Origin: a virus
Reading direction: 5' to 3' (one strand)
Length of the DNA stretch: 27,283 nt
IMG/VR virus record: IMGVR_UViG_3300028573_000047
Location: 1 to 27,283 of that record
Made by a program: the position numbers and the translations under genes
The notes under the pieces: model-generated
Databases searched by the model: none
The model's input: only the letters and a program-made list of their open reading frames with translations
Told to the model about the DNA's origin: nothing
In this document: piece by piece, positions 3,038 through 14,413 of the stretch
Layout: each line of letters opens with the position of its first letter
Position numbering within the stretch: the first letter of the stretch is position 1

Positions 3038-6000
3038 CTATCGTTTCCAAGGATGTTCTGATTGATCGCGACGCTCGAACCGATGTGCCCTATCGGCTGC
3101 GTCGTAGTCAGTGCCCATGAAAACGCGGGCCAGTGGAACGTGGGACCAGTCTGGAGCTTTCCCTTCGACGGCGTTTTTGCCGGTATTGATGATGTTTTCA
3201 GCCATCCGCCGTTGCGTGCCTAGCGCATAATCGAACATGAGGCGGATGTCTTCGGGGTAGAAATCGAGCGCGCTCTGATGGTTCTTGTCGCCTCCAGCCG
3301 CGCTATTCATGGCGGAAGCAATGTACTTCCAGCCGTCGCCCGTGGTCTTGCGGCCGGATTCCGAGTTGGGGCCTTTTTGATAGGTTGGTTCTTTGTGAAC
3401 CGGGATCGCGTTGTAGTTCTCGTTGGTGTAGGCGTGGATGAAGGGGCGAGCCAGTTCCGGCGCCAGCATCGCGGCCTTGTTCTCTTCCTGGCCGAACGGC
3501 GTCATGACTTCGACGCCCGATTTGGTCATCATGCCGATCATGTTGCGGAAGCGGTGCGGATCGGTGCCAAAGGCCATCGTCGCAAACGCCGAACCGATCG
3601 TCATCGGGAACGCCCAATTGTACGGCATGGCAATGTGGTACGGGACCGGGCGCCCCTTTTCGTCCTTGTGCAGCGGGTTGAGCACGGTGAAATTCAACCG
3701 CCGCTCCCACAGCGGTATTTTGTCCATGAAATAGCGGTCGTCCTTGTCCTTGCCGCCGATCAGGTAGTTGAACATGGTCGACAGGAAGCCCATCAGCATG
3801 GTTCCGGCAAAGACGCCTTGCATGATCCGAGACCGTGCCACGGCGCTCGTCATCCGCGCGCCGGTCTGGATCGCGACGTTGCCGAACGGGAACACGAGGC
3901 CGATGGCGTTTTTCCACTTGCCGACAAGCTGGAAATCTACCGTGGCATCGCGAGCGATCAGCGCCGCCTTCTCCGGGGTCTTGCCCTGCTTGCGCGCGGA
4001 GGCGTAGGCCGCCAGCCGTAGCGAGTTGTCGAGCGCGTTAGTGATCGTGTCCATCGCCTCGGTCATGGCGTGGACCTTATCCTTGAGCGAGCGCAGCGGG
4101 CTTTTCGAGATCGAGGAAAGCTTGTTGTGCAGATGCTCCTTGGTCAGATTGGTGTCGCGCATCTGGCGGAACACCATCGATCCGCCCGCACTCTTCATTT
4201 CCTGCCAGTACTTTTGCATCTCGCGCACGGAAGCGTTGACGTGCTGGATACCGGCGTTGCTGGCAAAGATCGCGCGCGAGGCCGTGCCGACGAACGGGAT
4301 TGCGTCCTTGACGTATTGCGATACGGCGTGGTCGCCGGTTGCTTTTTGCTCGAACGAGTTGAGCGTGCCTTCGACGGGATAGCGGAACAGGAAGTGGCGA
4401 ACCAAGAAATCCGGACTGTAGTGGGTCCAGAGCGATTTGAGTTTGTTCTGGACGTCGAGCAAGCCTTGGAAGATGCCGAGCCCGTCGGCGTGCATGCGCT
4501 TGATCGCGTCAGCCAGATCTCGGTCGGTGAATACCCAATAATGGGTGTCGCCGTTGATCTTGAAGGCGACGGCCTTCGGGTCGTTGGCATAGCCGCCGGT
4601 GTCGATGGTGTGGACAAGTCCGGTCTTGTTCGAGATGACACGCTTCGGCTTGCTGTGATCGCGGACCGCGAAGCCCTTCAAAGCATCCGGATCGCTGTTG
4701 TGCATGCCCTGCAATGCCCGATCGAGCGCTTGCAGGTACTCGTTCTTCTTGCCGCGCTCCAGCGTGCGGTAGACCTGATCCAACAGATTGACGAGCGGAT
4801 TGTTCGCCTTGCTGGAGCGGCCGAGCGCCTGCTTCACTTCCTTGCCGCGGACGTTGAACTTGCCGGGTTCGCCCAGGCTCTCGTTGGCGTCCTCGCGCAC
4901 TTCCTCGAACCCGCCGAGCGGAACGTAGTTCTTGTACTTCGCCTGCCATGCCTTGATGGTTTCGGGCGATTCCAGCCCATGCGCTTCCATGGCACGGAGA
5001 ACATATTCGCGGATCGCATCGACGCGCTTGGCGATCTCGGCCTCTAGTTTCGGCCGGCCGAAATCCCTGATGATCTTGGCGGCTTCGGCGTCCGTCATGC
5101 CGGAACCGGCGCCCTTGAGGGCCGGGTTGATCTTGTGGATCTCGCGGTTGCGTTCGGCGGCGTGCCGGGCATAGAGCAGATTGCCGACTTCCGGCAGCGT
5201 GACGTCGTTGGTCTTGAGAAGGTCGATCAGCGGATCGAGGAATTTGCTCTCGAACTCTTTGGTCTCGTTGCCGATCTTGCCGGGGAACAGGCGCTTTTTC
5301 TGGTAGAAGGCGTTGCTGTCCGGAAGTGTCCCGTTCATGCGGGCTTCGACGGCATCGTTCAGCCGCTTCACCGGCTCGGAGAGATTCTGGTAACGCTCGA
5401 CAAAGCGGTTCCAGCTTGTCGAAGCCATCAGGTCTTTGAGGCGATTGGAGACGGCGCCGTTTTGTTGCTTGCGGAATCGGTCGAAAGGCGAAGCAAACCG
5501 AGTTTCAGGTCCGAGCAGCCTATATTGCTCGCCGCCTATCCCTTCGTCTGTTGGCGCCTCTTCTCGGCGATTACCTTGCGCGCGTGCTGCACGGTCAGTG
5601 ATTTGTCGGGCGAGTCGGGCATGGATTTCGCCTCGGTCAAATGATGCTCCCACGTCGCCAGCGTGTCGAGCGGACCGGGCGCGTCCAGCAACCTCACTGT
5701 TTTTGCCTCTGTCACCGAATACTGCCTTTCTCGCAAGTTCAGTCGCGTCCTTGAGTGCCTTATCTAAACCGGTAATGTTCTTCGGCAATGCCGTTTCGTC
5801 GAAATTATGCTGGTAGTCGATGATCCCGGCGTCCCGCATCGCAACATTGACGAGATGCCCCCAAACGTCATTGCCGCGGTCGGCGTCGATGATGCCAGCC
5901 TTGTAGGCAGCCTCCAGTGGGCGAAACAGAATATCGCCAGCGCGTAAGTGGGTGATGCGAATCTTCTTGGCTGCATATTCCGGGTCGATCGGGAGAAGAG

Positions 6001-9000
6001 ACCGGGCATCCGGTGTCAATTCCGCACGATAGACCCCGCCGAAATGGCCGTGTGCCCATACAGCGCGCAAGCCGCGCCGACCGAGTTGGCCGATATCGAT
6101 ATCGCTCAAGCTGCGGTCGGTCGGGTGGTTGTGGTGAACAACGATGCTGTTTTTCGGATTGTTGATGAGCGCGAGGAACTGAGGCCCGAAATCGATATAT
6201 TTGGCGTTGCCCTCTGATCGCCAAATCTCGTTGCCACCCTGATCGTAGGCGATCATGGCTTCGTTGCCGGTCGAGACCCCCCGTAGCAGTAACTCGGATT
6301 GAGCCGCCTCGCCCGGCCCCTGCAACGGTCCGCGCTGCTCGGCAAGCCCGCCCTTGCCAGCCATTCCGTCAAGGAACGCCTGCCGCGCCTCGGCAGACTT
6401 GAACTGGAAGCCCGGAATGGCGCCATTGCCCTTGAACGAGCTGTAATAGCCGCCTTGCGCCTTGGCAGCGCTGGCCATCTGATCGTAGACGTCGCGCTCG
6501 ACCCGCTGATCCGGGGTGGCGACGAATAGCTTGCCTTTGGTCTTGGCGTGGATGGTCTCGCCGGTCTTGAAGGTGACGCCGGACGGCGCCGACGGTTTTT
6601 CGGCCTCGGGGGGCGGATTGGCAACGGCATCGAGGAACTTGGAGCGCGCCTCAAGATTGGGGAAACGGAAGCTTTTGAGGGTCTTGAGGTAGTGGCCACC
6701 ATTGGCTTCGGCGGTGCGCGCCAGTTTGGCGAAGCCTTCGCGACCTACCTTGCTTTTCAGATCGGCGTAAACCTCGCCGCCGGTCGATAGTGGCGGCAGA
6801 TTGAACTCAATGCCGCCGACGCTGATACCACCATGGGTCGGCGCGTCAACGTCCTTGGTCTTGGGCTCAAATCGCGGCCCCGCATCAGCGTGTTCAATGC
6901 GATCGAACAGGTCGCTAATCTTATCAACGTCGAAATAGGATCGGGAAACGTAGCGTTGCCGGTTCTTGTCGTTGATCTCCGGATCGGTCTGTTTTTCCAG
7001 CACCGTAATGAAGGAGGCAATCCCGGTGCCGGCGCGCTCGAACGTAACCGGCGGCAGGTAGAAGTCAGCAACCGTGCGCAAGCCCTTGGCCGCGTCACTT
7101 TGCATGAACGCATGCATCCGCTTGTCGGCGGCGCCACCGCGCGGCAATAGCGCCACGATCCGGCCGCCGTTCTTGAGGTGCTTTGCCGCCTTCTCCAGAT
7201 GCTCGATGGCAGTCTTGCCGCCAGACCCGAACGGCGGGTTCATAATGATGGCGTCGAACTTGTTGGCACCGGTGTCCAGATTCTCGAAGCGGTCGACCAC
7301 GACGCGCGCGCCTGGGGATGTCAGCGCCGCGCGGCTGGCGAGGCTGGAGGACGGCTCGACCAAGGTCCGCATGGTGTCTTCGGGCAGATAGCGCGAGATC
7401 GCGCCGTGGCCGGCCGACGGCTCCAGCACCTTCTCGCCCGGTTTGATGTCGGCGAACTCGACCATCTTGAGGCCGATCGGCTCCGGGGTGGCGTAGTAAT
7501 CTGTTCCTTCGCGCTGGTCGCGCCGACCGGTGACCTTCGCCTGGGCGAAATAGTGCGTCTTGGCCTTCTCGAACTCGGAGATCGAATGCGTGGTCGCCTT
7601 GTCCAGCGCTTTGCCGCCGGTCCCCTCGCCTGCTTCTGGCTCGTAGTCGCCGGAATTGCTGAATGAATCGATGAAGGATTGCCGGATGGTGCGCGCCAGA
7701 TCGCCGAGCGCGAGGTTTTCCGCAGTGCCGGCGCGGTCTGCGATCTTGCCGGCGAAGGTCCAGCGCTCCCAATCGGTGCCGGTGTTCATGTAGCGGAACA
7801 TGGCGTCGGAAGCTTGGCCTACGCGGTAGATGCGCCCCTCTTGCTGGATCGAGGTGGTGGGCCGGATCGGCATGCCGAGATTAAGCAAAGTGCGCTGATG
7901 CTTGCCGGTGGTATCGTGGAGACTGATCCCGGCCTCGCCCGCGGCCGATTGCACGATGATGATGTCGCGGCCGGAATTGTCGTCGTTGAACAGCCGCTTG
8001 GCCTCGTTGCGATGCTTGTTCGAGACGGTGCCGTTATAGACAAGCGCCTGCGGGAACGCGGCGGTGAGCGCATTGATCGGCGATGGATACTTCGAGAAGT
8101 CCAGATGCGCGACATAGGGATTAGCACGCACGAACTCGTCATGAAGGTCGCCAAGGTCATACTCGACGTTCTTGCCGCCTTGATAGGATGATCCCTTGCC
8201 AGACGGCTTGACGGCGAACGGCGAGATGCCGCCGCCCTCGTTGTAGTCGTGGAACACCACGACCTTGCGGCCGAGCGCCAGCGACTTCTTGATGAATGGG
8301 ATGGCAGATTGCGCCTTCATCGCCTCAAGCAGTCGCATCCGCGTCAGGTAGTCGAATTGCTTGGAGATCACGTCGTAGAGCGGCCGGAACTTCTCGTTCT
8401 CGGTGAGGAAGTTCATGGCGCGGTCGATCAATTCGCCAACGGCATCATGCGCGAGCACGAACTTGCGATCGTAATCCTTGTCGACGGTCAGCGCCCGGCC
8501 GGACAGCGAGCCTTGTTTCTTTAGGTGCTCGTGGAGCTGGCGCTCCATCACCTCTTGCTTGACGTCGGCTTCCGGCTGCGTGAGCTTGTTGGTGCGCATC
8601 CGATAGCCGAGATGCTGCATGAAGAAGCGATCGCGGCCCGATCCGGAATTGTAGCGCGATCCTTGCTCGTCGCCATATTCGAACAGGTAACCATTCGCGT
8701 AGTCGAGCGACTTGTGATAGGCGAACGGCGTCGCGCTCATCAGCAGAGTTTTCGGGCGTTCCTCAGCCCGCCACTTCGCGATCAGAGGATCGGCCTTCTT
8801 CTGGTACTGCGCATAGGCCTCTGCCTTCTTGGCCTCCGGAAGCTGGTCGATCTTGTCCCAATCGGAGCGCAGCACCATGCGGGCGCGCTCATGCAGGCCG
8901 TCGGGATGCTTGGTGATCGCGCGGAGGGTTTTGAGCGCTTCGGTCTCGGTGCCATTCTGATCCGAGGAAAGCTTGTGGGCTTCGTCGGCAACAACCATGT

Positions 9001-12000
9001 CCCACTCGCGATCGGCAAGGGTGCGGTTTTGTCCGAGATTGGCGTATGTCGTGCCGACGAACCCCTTTCCCTTGTCCTGGGTGTCCTCAAGGATCGATAG
9101 GTCGAGCCCGAGATCCTTCGCGGACCGGACCCAATCCATCAAGATACCCTGCGACGGCGCCACAACGAGCGTGTTGCCTTTGCCCTGCATCGCCATCCGC
9201 TTGATGACGCCCAGACCGGAATAGGTCTTGCCGGTGCCGGTGCCGTTGGTGAACAGCATGCCGTGGCCGTCCGGCTTGGCATAGCGCTGCTCGGCCTTGA
9301 GCACGTCGTCGTGCTGCTCCGGAAACAGCATCGGCAGCGTTTCGGCGATGTTGCTGATGTCGCCGGGGATGACGCGGGCGCCCTCGGCTTTGCGCTGGCG
9401 GTCGCGGCGCGCGCCTAGGTCGGCGTCTGCTTGAGCATTTCGGATAGTCTGCTCATCTGAGGTGCGTTCAAACGGAAGTCCTTCCGGGCCGTTATCAGCG
9501 CTTCGCTCAGACTCTCTTGCGGCGGTATCGCTACCCTCAACGTCGGGTTCGCGAGCAGGAAGTTCGAGATTGCCGTACGCTCCCACAGCAGGGGCATAAT
9601 CTTGAGATACGCGCTCGCCAGCACTGGATCGCTCGTTTCCTTCTCCAGCCGCTTTTCCTCGTTGGCCAGCGCCAGATCGAGCTGGTCCTGCGGCAGCGGG
9701 AACATCTGCTTCGCCCACTGCGTTTTCAGCGGTTGGCTCTCCGCGATCTGATTCCAGTATGCCGCCGCTGCTTGGTGCATTGATCGTCTCCCGGCCGGCA
9801 GTCACGTCTTCCGTGAAGCGCCGAATATAAGGCTTCATTTGCTGGATTGCATCGGCATCCATGCCCGAGGTGGCCAGATGCTTGACGAGCGAGCGGACCA
9901 TGGCGGTCAGGTCGGCCCCGCCGCCGGTAAAGTGCGCCACGCCAGCCTTGAAATATGGCAGCGCAGCACGGTAGGTGTCATCGCTGAACGGCTCGGAATC
10001 GGACAGGCCGGACTTCTTGCCGAACAGCGCGCCGAGGCCCTGCGCCACGTCGTCGAGGCTCATCGCCGCAGGCTTGGCGCCGAACTGCTCGTCCATCGCG
10101 GAATCGAAGATGTCGTCAAACTCGTCCTTCTTGGGCGGCGCTTTCGCAACCATGTCCATCAGGTCGGCTTGGTTCATCTCGTCGCCGAATAGCCCGATGT
10201 CGGCGGCCTTCTGTGCCACCTTCGGCTTGAGCGGCGCGGCGGCGGCGCGCTTGGCCATGGTGGCCTCGCTCGCCTTCTCGGCGCCGGGCATGACGAGTTG
10301 GGGCTTGTTGTCGGCGCCGCGCTCGATTACAGGCTCGGCGTTTCCGGCATCTTCGGCGGCTGGCTTGTTTTCAACGGCGTTGCCGGCTTCGTTCCGAGCG
10401 GCTTGCTTCCCGCTGGCGGCTGGCTCGACGGCGGCGCGAGCTGCGGCGGCTGGCTCATTGCCTTTGCCTTCGCCGGCGGCGCCGGCTTTTTGCTTGCCAG
10501 CTTTGCGGCCGCGCGGAACGACGCCAGTTTCTTTTGCACCACCGGCGCCGACTTCGCCAGATGCGGCGCGTTCTGGCTCAACAGGTGCGCCGCTGCTAGA
10601 TGCCCCTTCGCTTCCGGATTGAAGTACGTCTTTGACTTCGGGGCCATAGGCTTTCGCAGCCTCCAATGCAGTGAGGAATTTTTGCCGGACGGCGTTCTCG
10701 ATGACGGCGCGGCCGAAGGCGGCGGCTATGTCGATGCCGGGGCGCTCGACCATGATCTCGGCGGCGCGGCCGATATCGACCTGGGCGACCTTCTCGGCGT
10801 CGGGGCCGAGCGCTTCTTCTATGGCGTCTCGGTGCGCTGCGACTTGTTCTTGAACGCTTTCCGCGCCAAGATCCGAAACGTCTGCGATATCCTCGCGATC
10901 TTCTTCGCTTTCACGGGATCGCGCTCCTTCGCTGCGTTCTGATGCAGGAGGGCCGCCATTTTCTGATGCTCGTCCGGCGCGAATTTCATCGTGCGCTCCA
11001 TGTCCATAGATAGTGTCCAGATCGTCGGGTGTCACGCCATAATCGGCGTCTTCCGCAACCAGCTTGAGGGCGGCCTGCTCCACGGCGGAATCGGGGTCCA
11101 TCCCCTCTTCCACGATCAGGCGCGCGGCGGCGTGGTGCAGATCAGTCGGAATGTCGCTGTAGCCGGCCTCTTCGATAGCCGCGCGCGCGGCGCCGTACTC
11201 GGCCTCGTCGCGCTCCCGCTCGTGCTGCTCCCGCTCGGCCGCCAGCTCGCGCTCGCGCTTCGAGGTAGCCAGTTCCTCGCCTTCGGCAGTCTTGCGGTTG
11301 CCGCGGTTGTATTCCTCGTCGATCGCGTCCAGCAGCTCGCGGATGGTCGAGGTTTTGTTGTGCTCACCCTTGAGGTATCCGGCCTCTTCGGCCGCCTCGC
11401 GCATGGTGTCGAGGTCCATGCCGCCGGGCCGGACAACGCCAAAGAATCCCTTTTTGCCGGGCAGTTGGACGCGGTGCTTGCCGGAAAGGTCCAGCGCGTC
11501 GAGTTCCGCGTGCGGGGCAATGCCGCCTTTCGAGGCAATAAATTGCAGCAGCGAAAGCGGCTCAGAAATAACTTTGCCCGAGGGCCTGTTTTGACCAGAA
11601 CTTTCCGCGGTCTTCGTGGTTGAAGCGGTTGGCTCAGGTGCGGTGCCCCCACCTTCTTGAGCAACCTTCGGGGCGGCGGGAGATGGAACCGCCGTCCCGA
11701 CCTCTTTCAGCGGCTTGGTGTGATCGCCGTTTTTGAGCCAGTCCTTGAACTGATCCGGCGTGAACGCCGTTACGCCGCCGATCCGGTCCTTTGCGCCATC
11801 CGTATAGGAGTTGGCATAGGCATGCAGCGCGTCGATGGGCGTCCGATACCCAGCCAGAACCTTGTGCTCATCGAATTTACCGGAGGCATCGAGTTGATCG
11901 AGCACGAATACATGCGGGCTGGTTGGGTGCGGTCCGACGAAGATATCGAGGTGGTCGCCGTCGGCGCCGCGCGTCCCTTTGATCTTCCCGTAAGCGGCGT

Positions 12001-14413
12001 GCTCCATGGTGACGGACCATGGCTTGCCGTCGGCATCAACGCCTTTGCGCTCCCCACCGACGCCGGTCTCGATTGAGATGCTGTTCTTGCCGGACAGACC
12101 AAGGTGCGGCAGTTCGACGTGGGCCTGCTTGTAGTTGTCGGCCGCGGCCTGCGCGGGCGTCGGCTCGGCAGGCTGGGCGGCGACTACATCGTCCGCTGTT
12201 CGCGGGACAATCGGAGATTCTCGGGTTCCCGCTTCGGCGTTAGCACTGCCTCCTGCGGAGACATCCCGCGCCGAAATATCCGAATCCAAAGCGAGCCCGG
12301 GGTCATGCTGATTTCCCGCGCCCACATTGCCAACGTCTGTGTTCGACCGTTCACCGTTAGACTGACGTTCTTGCGCTGGTTGTTCGCCTGCTCGCGCCGC
12401 GTCGCCCACTTGACGTTCCCGGGGATGTAACCCTGATCGTTCTTGATCCGCTCCAGCGTCAGTTCCGGGCTCGGCTTGCGACCCACCGCCGTGATGAATA
12501 CCTGAAAGTCCGCCGCCCACTCCGGATCCATCGTGATCCCCCGCTCGCCGTAATTCTTGTACGACGGGTCCTTCGGGTTGCTGCACCGGCTTCTGATCGC
12601 CCTCCACACCCCGTACTCCGGAAGGCGATGCCCCCCGTGTTTCAGCATGCCGAGCGTTTTGGGTCTGCTCATCATTACTTCCTTCCGGCGGTGGCCGAGA
12701 TCGGCCCGTTCGGATCGCCTCATCGAACGCCTTTCGTCGCTGTTGCGGCGTCATGGCGTTTACCCAAGATGGGTCCCATCCCTTCCGGATCAAGGTCTCG
12801 CGTTGGGTTCGCGCGGTGGCCGCCTCTTCTCTTGCGGCGGCTTCTTCTGGCGTTTCTGGTTTTGCCGAATATCCCGTTTTAGAAGTGTCGCGGAGGTGGT
12901 CATTCAGCGTGTTGAACAGGTCGGCGTCGGACATTTTCGAAACATCGACCGTCGGGTCGATGGTCCGCATGACCTTCTCCATCTTCGCGCGGGTCTGCGC
13001 GTCCATGGTAAAGTCGGGGCCCTTGCCTTCGCCGGTGCCGGGCGGCGGCTTGCCGGGCTCGGCGCCCGGTGGCGGCTGCTGGCGCTGATTGCGCTCGGTG
13101 CCTGCATTGCCTGCACCTGGGCCGCCGGTGTCGGGGCCGGATTGCGGTCCGGGGCCAGCGCCGGGCGGTTCGGCCTCGGGACCGGGGCCGCGCGCGCTCG
13201 CGCCGCCGGGCGGCGGCTGCTGGCGTTGCCAGCTTCCGGTTCCTGCGGTCGGGCCGCCGGCGTCGCCGCCGACATCGGTGAAATCCGGGCCCGGCGGCGG
13301 GATGCCGGGACCGGGCTGTTGCTGCGTTCCCGCGCCCGGTTGCGGCGCTTCGGCGGCGGCCGGCTCGCCCGGCTTCCGCTCGAACGCGTGGTGCAGGCCG
13401 CCCATGCCGGCGCCGAGGATCAGCTCAGCAATGAGCCGCTTCTGGTCAAGGGTATAACCGGCCTTCGGATCGTAATCCTTGGCGATCTGCTGGAGGATGG
13501 CTTCCTGAGCCTCTCCGGCGGTCGCGAACGCTGCGCTTGAGCTCGCCACCTTGCCGATCAGGCCCTTGGCGTACTTGCCGGCGCCGAGCGGCGCCGCGCC
13601 GAGCACGCCGGCGACCATCGCTGACCGGGTGGCGGCGGATTCGGCGACGTCATCGGCCGCGCCGTGCTTCTTGGCTTCCTCGTAGACGTTGCCATAGGTG
13701 TCGGCCGCCATGCCGGCGGCGGCCGCCGGGATGCCGACGAGCGGCCCGGTCAGAAGGGTGGTCAGCGCATAGGGCGCGATTCCGCCCGCCATGGTGCCGA
13801 GCTTGCCGCCGAAGGACTCCTTTTCCTGATCGCTCATCGTGGGCGCGAGGCCCTTGACCGCCTTCCCAGCCTTGACCAAGGCGTTCTGGTCGACGGGCTG
13901 TTTCGGGGTCAGGCCCTCGGGATTGGCCGCGCCGGGCAGCGCCCAGGGCGAATTGAGCATGTCATTGCCGAGACCGGCTTCGGCGACCACGGGCGTCGTC
14001 TGCGAGTTGGCAGCGGCGGTGCCAGCACCTTGCAGGATGCCGCCGGCGGACTGCGCGGCACCGGCGGGGATGCCTTTGGCCGCGGCGAGCAGATTGCCGC
14101 CGACGCCGAGCGGCGGCGCGGGCGGTGCCGGCTGGGGCATCTGCTCGATCGGGGTGCCCTCGCTCGATAGGTCCGGCAGATCGCCGATCGGGGTGCCTTG
14201 CGACGAAAAATCCGGTTTGCCGTTCTTGGTCTCGGGCTTCTCGGTTTCCTTCTCGGCCGGCTTCGAAATCGAGAGCTTCCGGTTGAGCCGGTTGAGCACC
14301 ATATCGGCGTTGGCATTGTCCGGCAGATCAGGCAGCACGCCGCGCGACACGCGGTCCAGCACGCTATCCGCCGAGAAGTCCGGCGCCGATCCGATGGCGT
14401 CTTCGAGCGCCAT
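3038..14413 (-). CDS. Giant polyvalent protein: pyrophosphatase, helicase, methyltransferase, JAB, LPD38
   Basis: This 3791-residue frame starts at ATG 14413, overlapping the upstream stop as TGATG. Order: Ala/Gly-rich hydrophobic helices (about 80-340), Pro/Gly linker (340-470), pyrophosphatase-like region of polyvalent proteins (790-930; GADGDHLDIFVGP), small helical repeats (1085-1240), and SF2 helicase with GTGTGKT (1724), DEAH (1810), SATPF (1892) and QEGRIYRVGQ (2190). Next come an N6-adenine methyltransferase-like part with EPSAGHGA (2330) and NPPF (2392), two GGxY repeats (2555-2685), and a JAB-like part with HHNHP then SDID (2760). The long helical C-terminus has LPD38-type membrane segments near 3526-3550. 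Helicase plus methyltransferase recalls P1 DarB, so antirestriction after co-injection with DNA is the likely role. Five small genes lie out of frame in linkers near 580-743, 1142-1198, 1256-1362, 1545-1666 and 2900-2959. Whether one full-length chain is made is unproven. Confidence 0.85.
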   Translation of the reverse strand: MALEDAIGSAPDFSADSVLDRVSRGVLPDLPDNANADMVLNRLNRKLSISKPAEKETEKPETKNGKPDFSSQGTPIGDLPDLSSEGTPIEQMPQPAPPAPPLGVGGNLLAAAKGIPAGAAQSAGGILQGAGTAAANSQTTPVVAEAGLGNDMLNSPWALPGAANPEGLTPKQPVDQNALVKAGKAVKGLAPTMSDQEKESFGGKLGTMAGGIAPYALTTLLTGPLVGIPAAAAGMAADTYGNVYEEAKKHGAADDVAESAATRSAMVAGVLGAAPLGAGKYAKGLIGKVASSSAAFATAGEAQEAILQQIAKDYDPKAGYTLDQKRLIAELILGAGMGGLHHAFERKPGEPAAAEAPQPGAGTQQQPGPGIPPPGPDFTDVGGDAGGPTAGTGSWQRQQPPPGGASARGPGPEAEPPGAGPGPQSGPDTGGPGAGNAGTERNQRQQPPPGAEPGKPPPGTGEGKGPDFTMDAQTRAKMEKVMRTIDPTVDVSKMSDADLFNTLNDHLRDTSKTGYSAKPETPEEAAAREEAATARTQRETLIRKGWDPSWVNAMTPQQRRKAFDEAIRTGRSRPPPEGSNDEQTQNARHAETRGASPSGVRGVEGDQKPVQQPEGPVVQELRRAGDHDGSGVGGGLSGIHHGGGSQAEPGTDAGADQERSGLHPRERQVGDAARAGEQPAQERQSNGERSNTDVGNVGAGNQHDPGLALDSDISARDVSAGGSANAEAGTRESPIVPRTADDVVAAQPAEPTPAQAAADNYKQAHVELPHLGLSGKNSISIETGVGGERKGVDADGKPWSVTMEHAAYGKIKGTRGADGDHLDIFVGPHPTSPHVFVLDQLDASGKFDEHKVLAGYRTPIDALHAYANSYTDGAKDRIGGVTAFTPDQFKDWLKNGDHTKPLKEVGTAVPSPAAPKVAQEGGGTAPEPTASTTKTAESSGQNRPSGKVISEPLSLLQFIASKGGIAPHAELDALDLSGKHRVQLPGKKGFFGVVRPGGMDLDTMREAAEEAGYLKGEHNKTSTIRELLDAIDEEYNRGNRKTAEGEELATSKRERELAAEREQHERERDEAEYGAARAAIEEAGYSDIPTDLHHAAARLIVEEGMDPDSAVEQAALKLVAEDADYGVTPDDLDTIYGHGAHDEIRAGRASENGGPPASERSEGARSRESEEDREDIADVSDLGAESVQEQVAAHRDAIEEALGPDAEKVAQVDIGRAAEIMVERPGIDIAAAFGRAVIENAVRQKFLTALEAAKAYGPEVKDVLQSGSEGASSSGAPVEPERAASGEVGAGGAKETGVVPRGRKAGKQKAGAAGEGKGNEPAAAARAAVEPAASGKQAARNEAGNAVENKPAAEDAGNAEPVIERGADNKPQLVMPGAEKASEATMAKRAAAAPLKPKVAQKAADIGLFGDEMNQADLMDMVAKAPPKKDEFDDIFDSAMDEQFGAKPAAMSLDDVAQGLGALFGKKSGLSDSEPFSDDTYRAALPYFKAGVAHFTGGGADLTAMVRSLVKHLATSGMDADAIQQMKPYIRRFTEDVTAGRETINAPSSGGILESDRGEPTAENAVGEADVPAAAGPARSGAGQRGKAAGEGNERSSAGERVSQDYAPAVGAYGNLELPAREPDVEGSDTAARESERSADNGPEGLPFERTSDEQTIRNAQADADLGARRDRQRKAEGARVIPGDISNIAETLPMLFPEQHDDVLKAEQRYAKPDGHGMLFTNGTGTGKTYSGLGVIKRMAMQGKGNTLVVAPSQGILMDWVRSAKDLGLDLSILEDTQDKGKGFVGTTYANLGQNRTLADREWDMVVADEAHKLSSDQNGTETEALKTLRAITKHPDGLHERARMVLRSDWDKIDQLPEAKKAEAYAQYQKKADPLIAKWRAEERPKTLLMSATPFAYHKSLDYANGYLFEYGDEQGSRYNSGSGRDRFFMQHLGYRMRTNKLTQPEADVKQEVMERQLHEHLKKQGSLSGRALTVDKDYDRKFVLAHDAVGELIDRAMNFLTENEKFRPLYDVISKQFDYLTRMRLLEAMKAQSAIPFIKKSLALGRKVVVFHDYNEGGGISPFAVKPSGKGSSYQGGKNVEYDLGDLHDEFVRANPYVAHLDFSKYPSPINALTAAFPQALVYNGTVSNKHRNEAKRLFNDDNSGRDIIIVQSAAGEAGISLHDTTGKHQRTLLNLGMPIRPTTSIQQEGRIYRVGQASDAMFRYMNTGTDWERWTFAGKIADRAGTAENLALGDLARTIRQSFIDSFSNSGDYEPEAGEGTGGKALDKATTHSISEFEKAKTHYFAQAKVTGRRDQREGTDYYATPEPIGLKMVEFADIKPGEKVLEPSAGHGAISRYLPEDTMRTLVEPSSSLASRAALTSPGARVVVDRFENLDTGANKFDAIIMNPPFGSGGKTAIEHLEKAAKHLKNGGRIVALLPRGGAADKRMHAFMQSDAAKGLRTVADFYLPPVTFERAGTGIASFITVLEKQTDPEINDKNRQRYVSRSYFDVDKISDLFDRIEHADAGPRFEPKTKDVDAPTHGGISVGGIEFNLPPLSTGGEVYADLKSKVGREGFAKLARTAEANGGHYLKTLKSFRFPNLEARSKFLDAVANPPPEAEKPSAPSGVTFKTGETIHAKTKGKLFVATPDQRVERDVYDQMASAAKAQGGYYSSFKGNGAIPGFQFKSAEARQAFLDGMAGKGGLAEQRGPLQGPGEAAQSELLLRGVSTGNEAMIAYDQGGNEIWRSEGNAKYIDFGPQFLALINNPKNSIVVHHNHPTDRSLSDIDIGQLGRRGLRAVWAHGHFGGVYRAELTPDARSLLPIDPEYAAKKIRITHLRAGDILFRPLEAAYKAGIIDADRGNDVWGHLVNVAMRDAGIIDYQHNFDETALPKNITGLDKALKDATELARKAVFGDRGKNSEVAGRARSARHAGDVGASFDRGEIHARLARQITDRAARAQGNRREEAPTDEGIGGEQYRLLGPETRFASPFDRFRKQQNGAVSNRLKDLMASTSWNRFVERYQNLSEPVKRLNDAVEARMNGTLPDSNAFYQKKRLFPGKIGNETKEFESKFLDPLIDLLKTNDVTLPEVGNLLYARHAAERNREIHKINPALKGAGSGMTDAEAAKIIRDFGRPKLEAEIAKRVDAIREYVLRAMEAHGLESPETIKAWQAKYKNYVPLGGFEEVREDANESLGEPGKFNVRGKEVKQALGRSSKANNPLVNLLDQVYRTLERGKKNEYLQALDRALQGMHNSDPDALKGFAVRDHSKPKRVISNKTGLVHTIDTGGYANDPKAVAFKINGDTHYWVFTDRDLADAIKRMHADGLGIFQGLLDVQNKLKSLWTHYSPDFLVRHFLFRYPVEGTLNSFEQKATGDHAVSQYVKDAIPFVGTASRAIFASNAGIQHVNASVREMQKYWQEMKSAGGSMVFRQMRDTNLTKEHLHNKLSSISKSPLRSLKDKVHAMTEAMDTITNALDNSLRLAAYASARKQGKTPEKAALIARDATVDFQLVGKWKNAIGLVFPFGNVAIQTGARMTSAVARSRIMQGVFAGTMLMGFLSTMFNYLIGGKDKDDRYFMDKIPLWERRLNFTVLNPLHKDEKGRPVPYHIAMPYNWAFPMTIGSAFATMAFGTDPHRFRNMIGMMTKSGVEVMTPFGQEENKAAMLAPELARPFIHAYTNENYNAIPVHKEPTYQKGPNSESGRKTTGDGWKYIASAMNSAAGGDKNHQSALDFYPEDIRLMFDYALGTQRRMAENIINTGKNAVEGKAPDWSHVPLARVFMGTDYDAADRAHRFERRDQSEHPWKR
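5536..5715 (-). CDS. Small unknown protein nested out of frame in the giant gene
   Basis: The frame is one base out of phase with the giant gene. I choose GTG 5715 because GAAAGG lies about 9 nt upstream; a TTG at 5736 would add seven residues. The 59-residue product is balanced and helical (TLATWEHHLTEAKSMPDSPD then HARKVIAEKRRQQ), unlike the Ser/Arg/Pro-rich shadows elsewhere in this frame. In 5581-5640, 17 of 20 codons end in G or C here, against 9 of 20 in the giant frame. The giant protein reads an Arg/Ala/Gly-rich linker here, between the JAB-like part and the C-terminal domain. Function unknown. Confidence 0.6.
   Translation of the reverse strand: MTEAKTVRLLDAPGPLDTLATWEHHLTEAKSMPDSPDKSLTVQHARKVIAEKRRQQTKG
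9415..9780 (-). CDS. 121-aa helical protein nested out of frame in the giant gene
   Basis: ATG 9780 is preceded by GGGAG with a 7-nt spacer. The product has normal protein composition (Trp, Phe, Tyr, Met and charged residues spread evenly) and looks all-helical, with PLPQDQLDLALANEEKRLEK and a Leu-rich C-terminal half. In 9661-9720, 19 of 20 codons end in G/C in this frame but only 6 of 20 in the giant frame, which there reads a Gly/Ala/Ser/Glu linker. After this gene's TAG (9415-9417) the giant frame returns at once to 19 of 20 G/C-ending codons. The gene fills the gap between the region ending MKPYIRRFTEDV and the helicase. No family recognised; a small phage protein of unknown role. Confidence 0.72.
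   Translation of the reverse strand: MHQAAAAYWNQIAESQPLKTQWAKQMFPLPQDQLDLALANEEKRLEKETSDPVLASAYLKIMPLLWERTAISNFLLANPTLRVAIPPQESLSEALITARKDFRLNAPQMSRLSEMLKQTPT
10327..10647 (-). CDS. Basic Ala/Lys/Pro-rich protein nested out of frame in the giant gene
   Basis: The frame starts at ATG 10647, with GGAGG about 12 nt upstream, longer than ideal. The first 50 residues form a helical unit (YFNPEAKGHLAAAHLLSQNA, then a K-rich FRAAAKLASKK) that resembles the product at 10819-10989. The rest is a Pro/Lys/Ala/Gln tail, as in some small nucleic-acid-binding proteins; DNA or RNA binding is a guess. In 10561-10620, 14 of 20 codons end in G/C here against 9 of 20 in the giant frame, which reads an Ala/Gly/Glu linker. 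The tail is less convincing as coding sequence than the N-terminal unit. Confidence 0.55.
   Translation of the reverse strand: MAPKSKTYFNPEAKGHLAAAHLLSQNAPHLAKSAPVVQKKLASFRAAAKLASKKPAPPAKAKAMSQPPQLAPPSSQPPAGSKPLGTKPATPLKTSQPPKMPETPSL
10819..10989 (-). CDS. Small basic helical protein nested out of frame in the giant gene
   Basis: I choose ATG 10989 because GGAG lies 6 nt upstream; an ATG at 11007 would add six residues. The 56-residue product is helical and basic (KFAPDEHQKMAALLHQNAA then AKKIARISQTFRILARKAF). In 10861-10920, 16 of 20 codons end in G/C against 9 of 20 in the giant frame. It shares the pattern F-P-D/E, AA-LL-QNA and FR-A-K-A with the protein starting at 10647, so the two may be paralogues. 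It lies in a Glu/Ser/Arg-rich giant-protein linker, between two similar helical repeats of the giant protein. Function unknown. Confidence 0.62.
   Translation of the reverse strand: MKFAPDEHQKMAALLHQNAAKERDPVKAKKIARISQTFRILARKAFKNKSQRTETP
12184..12675 (-). CDS. HNH-type homing-endonuclease-like protein nested out of frame in the giant gene
   Basis: Translation should start at ATG 12675 (or the adjacent ATG 12672) because GGAAGGAAG lies directly upstream, a strong ribosome binding site; an ATG at 12723 lacks this. The 163-residue product follows a well-known phage pattern: YGVWRAIRSRCSNP, then YKNYGERGITMDPEW, then LERIKNDQGYIPGNVKWAT followed by EQANNQR. The C-terminal part (TLAMWAREISMTPGSLWIRI) looks like a helix-turn-helix. 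Such proteins are usually mobile HNH-like nucleases; activity here is inferred. In 12481-12540, 16 of 20 codons end in G/C here against 9 of 20 in the giant frame, which is a Gly/Gln/Glu-rich linker. After the TAG at 12184-12186 the giant frame regains 19 of 20. Confidence 0.8.
   Translation of the reverse strand: MMSRPKTLGMLKHGGHRLPEYGVWRAIRSRCSNPKDPSYKNYGERGITMDPEWAADFQVFITAVGRKPSPELTLERIKNDQGYIPGNVKWATRREQANNQRKNVSLTVNGRTQTLAMWAREISMTPGSLWIRIFRRGMSPQEAVLTPKREPENLRLSREQRTM
13010..13305 (-). repeat. Pro/Gly-rich linker with an imperfect internal duplication
   Basis: The giant protein here reads mostly Gly and Pro. The block QRQQPPPG occurs twice, encoded around 13211-13231 and 13066-13090, with identical DNA over 14 bases (13212-13225 and 13071-13084). 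GPDF-type endings also recur. This looks like an expanded flexible linker between the hydrophobic N-terminal part and the later domains. Unlike the linkers that hold nested genes, no alternative frame here gives a protein-like product. Confidence 0.5.

Follow-up and report, generated by a model that had tools for sequence, protein, structure and literature searches.

Nested frames in a giant phage gene

Can a single phage gene carry several other genes, out of frame, within the linkers of its product? The question is raised by an IMG/VR virus record of 27,283 bases, analysed here as a whole and referred to as the window, in which a preliminary description made from the sequence alone had noted five small same-strand frames inside one giant gene. 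The giant lies on the minus strand (positions 3038..14413) and encodes 3791 amino acids in one uninterrupted frame, a DarB-like polyvalent protein. A DNA methylase-helicase dyad is known from phage polyvalent proteins, with DarB of phage P1 as its archetype (Iyer et al. 2017, PMC5512222); P1 DarB, a virion head protein, guards DNA from restriction by type I systems (PMC5512222).

Three regions of the giant, all on the minus strand, could be assigned: an InPase domain (aa 754-894, positions 11732..12154; PF18823, E 2.3e-37), a helicase plus N6-methylase module (7041..9400; Pfam ResIII, Helicase_C_4 and MTS, and alignment) and an LPD38 domain (aa 3564-3761, positions 3131..3724; PF18857, E 1.8e-20). 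According to Pfam, the helicase is of the SWI2/SNF2 type (ResIII/Strawberry-notch-type) and the methylase is a small-domain methyltransferase. The giant is DarB-like on two counts, in that a helicase and an N6-methylase are joined to other polyvalent domains, and in that its neighbours are virion genes: virion and lysis genes surround it, among them those for a DNA ejection protein, head, tail fibre and endolysin. From this neighbourhood and the likeness to DarB, the giant is probably packaged in the virion.

The five nested frames exist as described, N1 at 12184..12675, N2 at 10819..10989, N3 at 10327..10647, N4 at 9415..9780 and N5 at 5536..5715, all on the minus strand and each in the +1 phase with respect to the giant. 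The remark that G/C-ending codons favour the small frames was borne out: GC3 is 0.80, 0.81, 0.79, 0.78 and 0.78 in the frames of N1, N2, N3, N4 and N5. Read in the giant frame, the corresponding bases give 0.49, 0.39, 0.56, 0.41 and 0.45, and the value for the whole giant is 0.75. The codon-position GC profile switches phase at each of the five frames and reverts afterwards. When the giant protein was recoded with the window's own codon usage, the observed giant-frame GC3 lay 3.2 to 6.8 SD under expectation in all five. As had also been noted, the giant-frame product over N1-N5 is a low-complexity linker, rich in Gly/Ala/Glu/Arg/Ser. The claim that most of the small genes have a reasonable ribosome-binding site stood for N1 (GGAAGGAA), N2 (GGAG) and N4 (GGGAG), where the sites are good, but not for N3 and N5, where they are weak or distant. 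Earlier in-frame starts are possible for N1 (at 12723), N2 (at 11007) and N5 (at 5736).

One would expect to find all five frames in +1 rather than in +2, because stops are rare in +1: there, the first base of the giant codon is the third base of the nested codon and is seldom T. The openness of a single frame is therefore weak evidence, and it is conservation that carries the case. Every nested product has relatives in other giants, and these lie out of frame there too. The preliminary description had named two results that would speak against its reading, namely nested products without homologues outside this gene and constraint in the giant frame only. In both instances the opposite was found: all five products have homologues, and the substitution pattern of N4 reveals constraint in the small frame. 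The proposed nesting of genes in polyvalent linkers is thus supported.

N1 is a relative of HNH endonucleases

A profile search of the nested products, as had been proposed, identified the 163-aa product of N1 as a member of PHROG 3377 (E 8.3e-45, residues 12-159). N1 is a full-length relative of HNH endonucleases, and 961 phage records match it (tblastn). Nested relatives were found in the loci L010, L054 and L123. The occurrence of the gene is patchy: it is present in the window and in L010 and missing from L009 between conserved flanks. In the four nested copies, the frame corresponding to the giant contains 0 stops; in free-standing HNH relatives, the same frame contains 1, 1, 15, 8, 20 and 11, the single stops being those of two GC-rich phages and the 8 to 20 stops those of the four other relatives. 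Out-of-frame HNH endonucleases inserted in phage methylase genes have been described as the ShiLan domain and Pacc40 gp60 insertions (Arsenault et al. 2025, PMC11855218). With an HNH product, a host frame without a stop and a patchy presence at its site, N1 fits among these ShiLan-type insertions, active homing being putative.

N4 accompanies the helicase-methylase module

N4 encodes 121 amino acids and is the conserved core of the nested set. It belongs to no Pfam, PHROG or NCBIfam family, and 41 N4 members compared with PHROG and NCBIfam gave only scattered marginal matches, none of them HNH; a ShiLan-type HNH identity was accordingly dropped for N4. By tblastn, N4 matches eight phage records, behind which stand six distinct phages. 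In all six, the match lies in +1 inside a giant annotated as a PLxRFG, DarB-like, N6-methylase or hypothetical protein, and N4 itself is unannotated. A search of IMG/VR with the N4 alignment returned 48 loci. In these and the six phages together, N4 was in +1 within one open giant frame in 54/54 cases, with giant frames of 1822-5725 aa.

Retrieval by N4 is circular as to its presence, and giants were therefore fetched by the helicase-methylase alone. N4 was present in 80/80 of them, and in 78/80 from a second helicase-methylase scan biased to divergent helicases, the two scans having contigs in common and also sharing some with the initial N4 retrieval. In the giants fetched in this way, N4 was always in +1 and nearly always directly before the helicase. 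In the phages collection, the helicase-methylase matched exactly the same 8 records as N4. N4 was also nested in +1 in five bacterial-genome loci and one Comamonas plasmid, and it occurs at the same site in related giants of about a hundred different phages. A free-standing N4 was found neither in phages and plasmids nor in the genome scan or ~750 sampled genomes of two classes.

The surroundings of N4 vary among giants. In L132, L135 and L140 the host gene is short (~1236 aa) and low in GC, consisting of an N-terminal domain, a Ser/Gly linker and the helicase-methylase, with N4 retained. Between N4 and the helicase, L015 carries a YHGTDADFQGF domain (10369-11296) that resembles an ADP-ribosyltransferase, and L018 and L020 carry a 'PYL' domain.

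AlphaFold2, run on 41 aligned sequences, predicts for N4 a compact protein of eight helices (pLDDT 95.8, pTM 0.88). Foldseek returned nothing with E < 1 from PDB and BFVD, and the N4 sequence profile had no significant match in PDB. A likeness to a transcriptional regulator was discarded, the best VIA-align Z of 3.5 not being meaningful for a helical protein. P1 DdrA, which also has 121 aa, was considered as a counterpart and rejected, no P1 protein matching the N4 profile.

Both frames are kept across N4

Across 100 non-redundant copies of N4, the giant frame contains 0 stops and the third frame 960. For the 52 copies of <60% identity, permutation of synonymous codons within N4 gave an expectation of 81.6 ± 7 giant-frame stops (minimum 60 of 1000 trials), and none was observed; continuity of the giant is therefore selected. 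A Shine-Dalgarno motif precedes 80 of 97 N4 starts (82%), as compared with a background in the same giants of 635/8386 other +1 ATGs (8%) and 6% of in-frame ATGs. The protein, its Shine-Dalgarno motif and its start are kept even in loci of 31-39% GC.

Most substitutions in N4 are at the third position of the nested codons, and identity in the nested frame exceeds that in the giant frame in 1528/1540 N4 pairs. The NN/SN ratio, which sets sites non-synonymous in both frames against sites silent in N4 only, is 0.46, an estimate pooled over related pairs in which few sites are synonymous in both frames. Substitution analysis detected no amino-acid constraint on the giant frame over N4, and the giant seems to need just an open connection there. 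Constraint on the nested protein is thus indicated by the substitutions for N4, and by family membership for N1. By the sequence evidence, the nested frames are genuine genes whose proteins are conserved and most of which have a ribosome-binding site, while across N4 the giant is held open.

An empty site and the origin of the linker

The comparison of homologous giants for presence or absence of each insert, which had been suggested at the outset, was informative for N4 as it was for N1 in L009. In L232, N4 is absent and the domain that lies upstream of it elsewhere is joined to the helicase by ~23 residues only. N4 and the linker are lacking together, and therefore, as far as this one locus goes, the long linker belongs to N4 and not to the architecture of the giant. 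In L233, a helicase-methylase without N4 is a stand-alone protein of 841 aa. Since the module exists without N4 in L232 and L233, it does not strictly depend on N4. In a midpoint-rooted tree, these two modules are interspersed with modules that carry N4 (support 0.94 and 0.70), which suggests, on long branches and with an uncertain root, that N4 was lost in both. On present sequence evidence, the linkers are more than hosts and, at least in the case of N4, are there because of the nested gene.

Further nested genes

Comparable sites in L009 and L010 hold relatives of N2 (56 aa); these relatives are few and weak (E 0.037, tblastn). N3 (106 aa, with a basic/proline-rich tail) has a relative in a nested ORF of L009, with 73% identity over 105 aa (E 1.7e-20) and a conserved start. 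Neither N2 nor N3 had a match in the phages collection; their relatives were found in IMG/VR loci only. N5 (59 aa, GTG start) has nested relatives in L009, L010, L002, L008 (phage PBC5) and L011. Relatives of N5 lie at aa 1342, 1417, 1852, 2893, 3136 and 3522 of different giants, although the three closest giants share one site. In L008, from Sinorhizobium phage PBC5, the N5 relative (12974-13174) is out of frame in the DNA methylase gene orf23, which lacks N4.

We took a census of nested genes by codon log-likelihood with an internal null, together with a Shine-Dalgarno requirement; a plain GC3 flip was dropped as a census tool, being unreliable in low-GC genomes. Inside the helicase-methylase, 0 of 77 Shine-Dalgarno-led ORFs were codon-supported. 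Outside it, there were 84 codon-supported nested ORFs, every one of them in +1 rather than +2, and 51/84 were N4. A second nested family of ~52 aa (MTN...) lies directly upstream of N4 and ends at the N4 start in nine giants (L030, L032, L034, L037, L040, L041, L042, L044 and L049), forming a nested tandem.

Alternative explanations

The nested frames could be a by-product of GC-rich, low-complexity linkers, the giant being the sole gene and the openness of +1 due to chance. In 44-78% of cases, a recoded giant linker does leave the nested frame open, and many signal-less +1 ORFs of at least 40 aa occur in giants. However, the codon signature sits in the nested frames, N1 is a full-length HNH-family protein, the conservation of N4 with its start and Shine-Dalgarno motif extends to low-GC loci, and N4 substitutions follow the nested frame. 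This explanation is already refuted for N1 and N4, and we give it scarcely any credence overall. The converse, that only the small genes are real and that the giant frame across them is accidental, the giant being several separate proteins, finds some comfort in the giant-frame amino acids over N4, on which constraint is not detectable. It is contradicted by the complete lack of giant-frame stops where some 82 were expected, by giants that are open end to end over as much as about 5700 aa, and by the observation that no giant-frame ATG was seen from the N4 stop to the helicase in the window, L132 or L135; we regard it as very improbable.

Removal of the nested stretches as introns or inteins, from the message or from the protein, was considered because the HNH type of N1 is common in such elements and because a relative appears to contain one: in L011 (10555-11614), an apparent intein splits the helicase Walker A motif (GTGK...HN, then TYSG). 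Yet Rfam found no group I/II intron core anywhere in the window and Pfam no intein/Hint-type splicing domain in the 3791-aa giant, the nested intervals have starts and stops of their own, and N4 is nearly universal and not patchy, so that this reading is hardly credible. A different proposal accepts the nested genes as real and takes all of them for selfish or neutral cargo in tolerant linkers, N4 having no functional link to the helicase-methylase. The patchy, HNH-like N1, the different places of N5 in different giants and the abundance of free-standing HNH relatives agree with it. Cargo would, however, be expected to be lost and moved more often than N4, which was found in all but two of the modules fetched in the two scans and nowhere else, almost always immediately ahead of the helicase, even in phages that are very divergent. 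For these reasons we think it unlikely that N4 is cargo.

Proposed model and implications

The explanation that we favour, and consider quite probable, is that a DarB-like giant carries separate +1 genes made by internal initiation, with N4 as a partner, N1 as a selfish element and N2, N3 and N5 as accessories. Each nested gene would have its own start and stop in the +1 frame of the giant. Ribosomes initiating internally on the giant's mRNA would make the small proteins, while other ribosomes would read through and produce the giant, where these bases would yield a flexible linker only. N4 may be a small helical partner subunit of the adjacent helicase-methylase, because it occurs only with that module; it might hold, target or inhibit the helicase-methylase until injection. 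By analogy with P1 DarB, N4 could have a role in the virion or help to protect the DNA early on. N1 would be a selfish insertion of HNH (homing) type lodged in a tolerant linker, and N2, N3 and N5 would be accessory genes that come and go.

If so, N4 is probably an overlooked standard partner of a phage enzyme that protects incoming DNA. A broader version holds both that N4 is a hidden obligate subunit in the DarB-like branch and that polyvalent linkers are general docking sites for overprinted cargo, the linkers being shadows of genes; to this twofold claim we would give an even chance.

The N4 family, which almost all members of a large phage enzyme class carry, has gone unannotated because gene callers accept a single frame in any one stretch. 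Anti-restriction polyvalent proteins may thus have small partners that nobody has sought, and the odd low-complexity linkers of polyvalent proteins may be explained in part as a by-product of second genes. The locus also offers a clean system for testing dual coding: a change of the N4 start from ATG to ACG turns the giant codon NAT into NAC and is always silent in the giant.

Relation to known systems

A small gene wholly inside another, on the same strand, out of frame and with its own start, is exemplified by Rz1 in Rz of phage lambda. N1-N5 are nested in the same manner. The lambda case differs in being one gene in a small lysis gene, whereas the giant holds several unrelated genes in interdomain linkers.

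Polyvalent proteins of the DarB type resemble the giant in fusing a helicase and an N6-methylase with InPase and LPD38 and in being encoded beside virion genes. P1 DarB itself is unlike it, with the methylase first, that is, in reverse domain order, and no N4 match. A word search of the paper on these proteins (PMC5512222) found no mention of overlapping genes.

In ShiLan and Pacc40 gp60, as in N1, an HNH gene occupies another frame and the host frame stays open across the insertion; the occurrence is patchy, the host is a methylase or helicase-methylase, and there is no splicing signature. The ShiLan HNH is without a detectable ribosome-binding site (PMC11855218), whereas N1 has a good Shine-Dalgarno motif. 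Published ShiLan-type cases are, moreover, single HNH insertions, whereas N1 shares its host with four other genes, including the nearly universal, non-HNH N4. The preliminary description had known of no polyvalent protein with genes in its linkers. Out-of-frame HNH insertions had in fact been published (PMC11855218), but in the open literature searched we came across no account of N4, of a polyvalent gene with several genes nested in it or of linkers that arise from such genes. The arrangement is thus partly unprecedented: out-of-frame HNH insertion was already known, and the new part is the N4 gene family.
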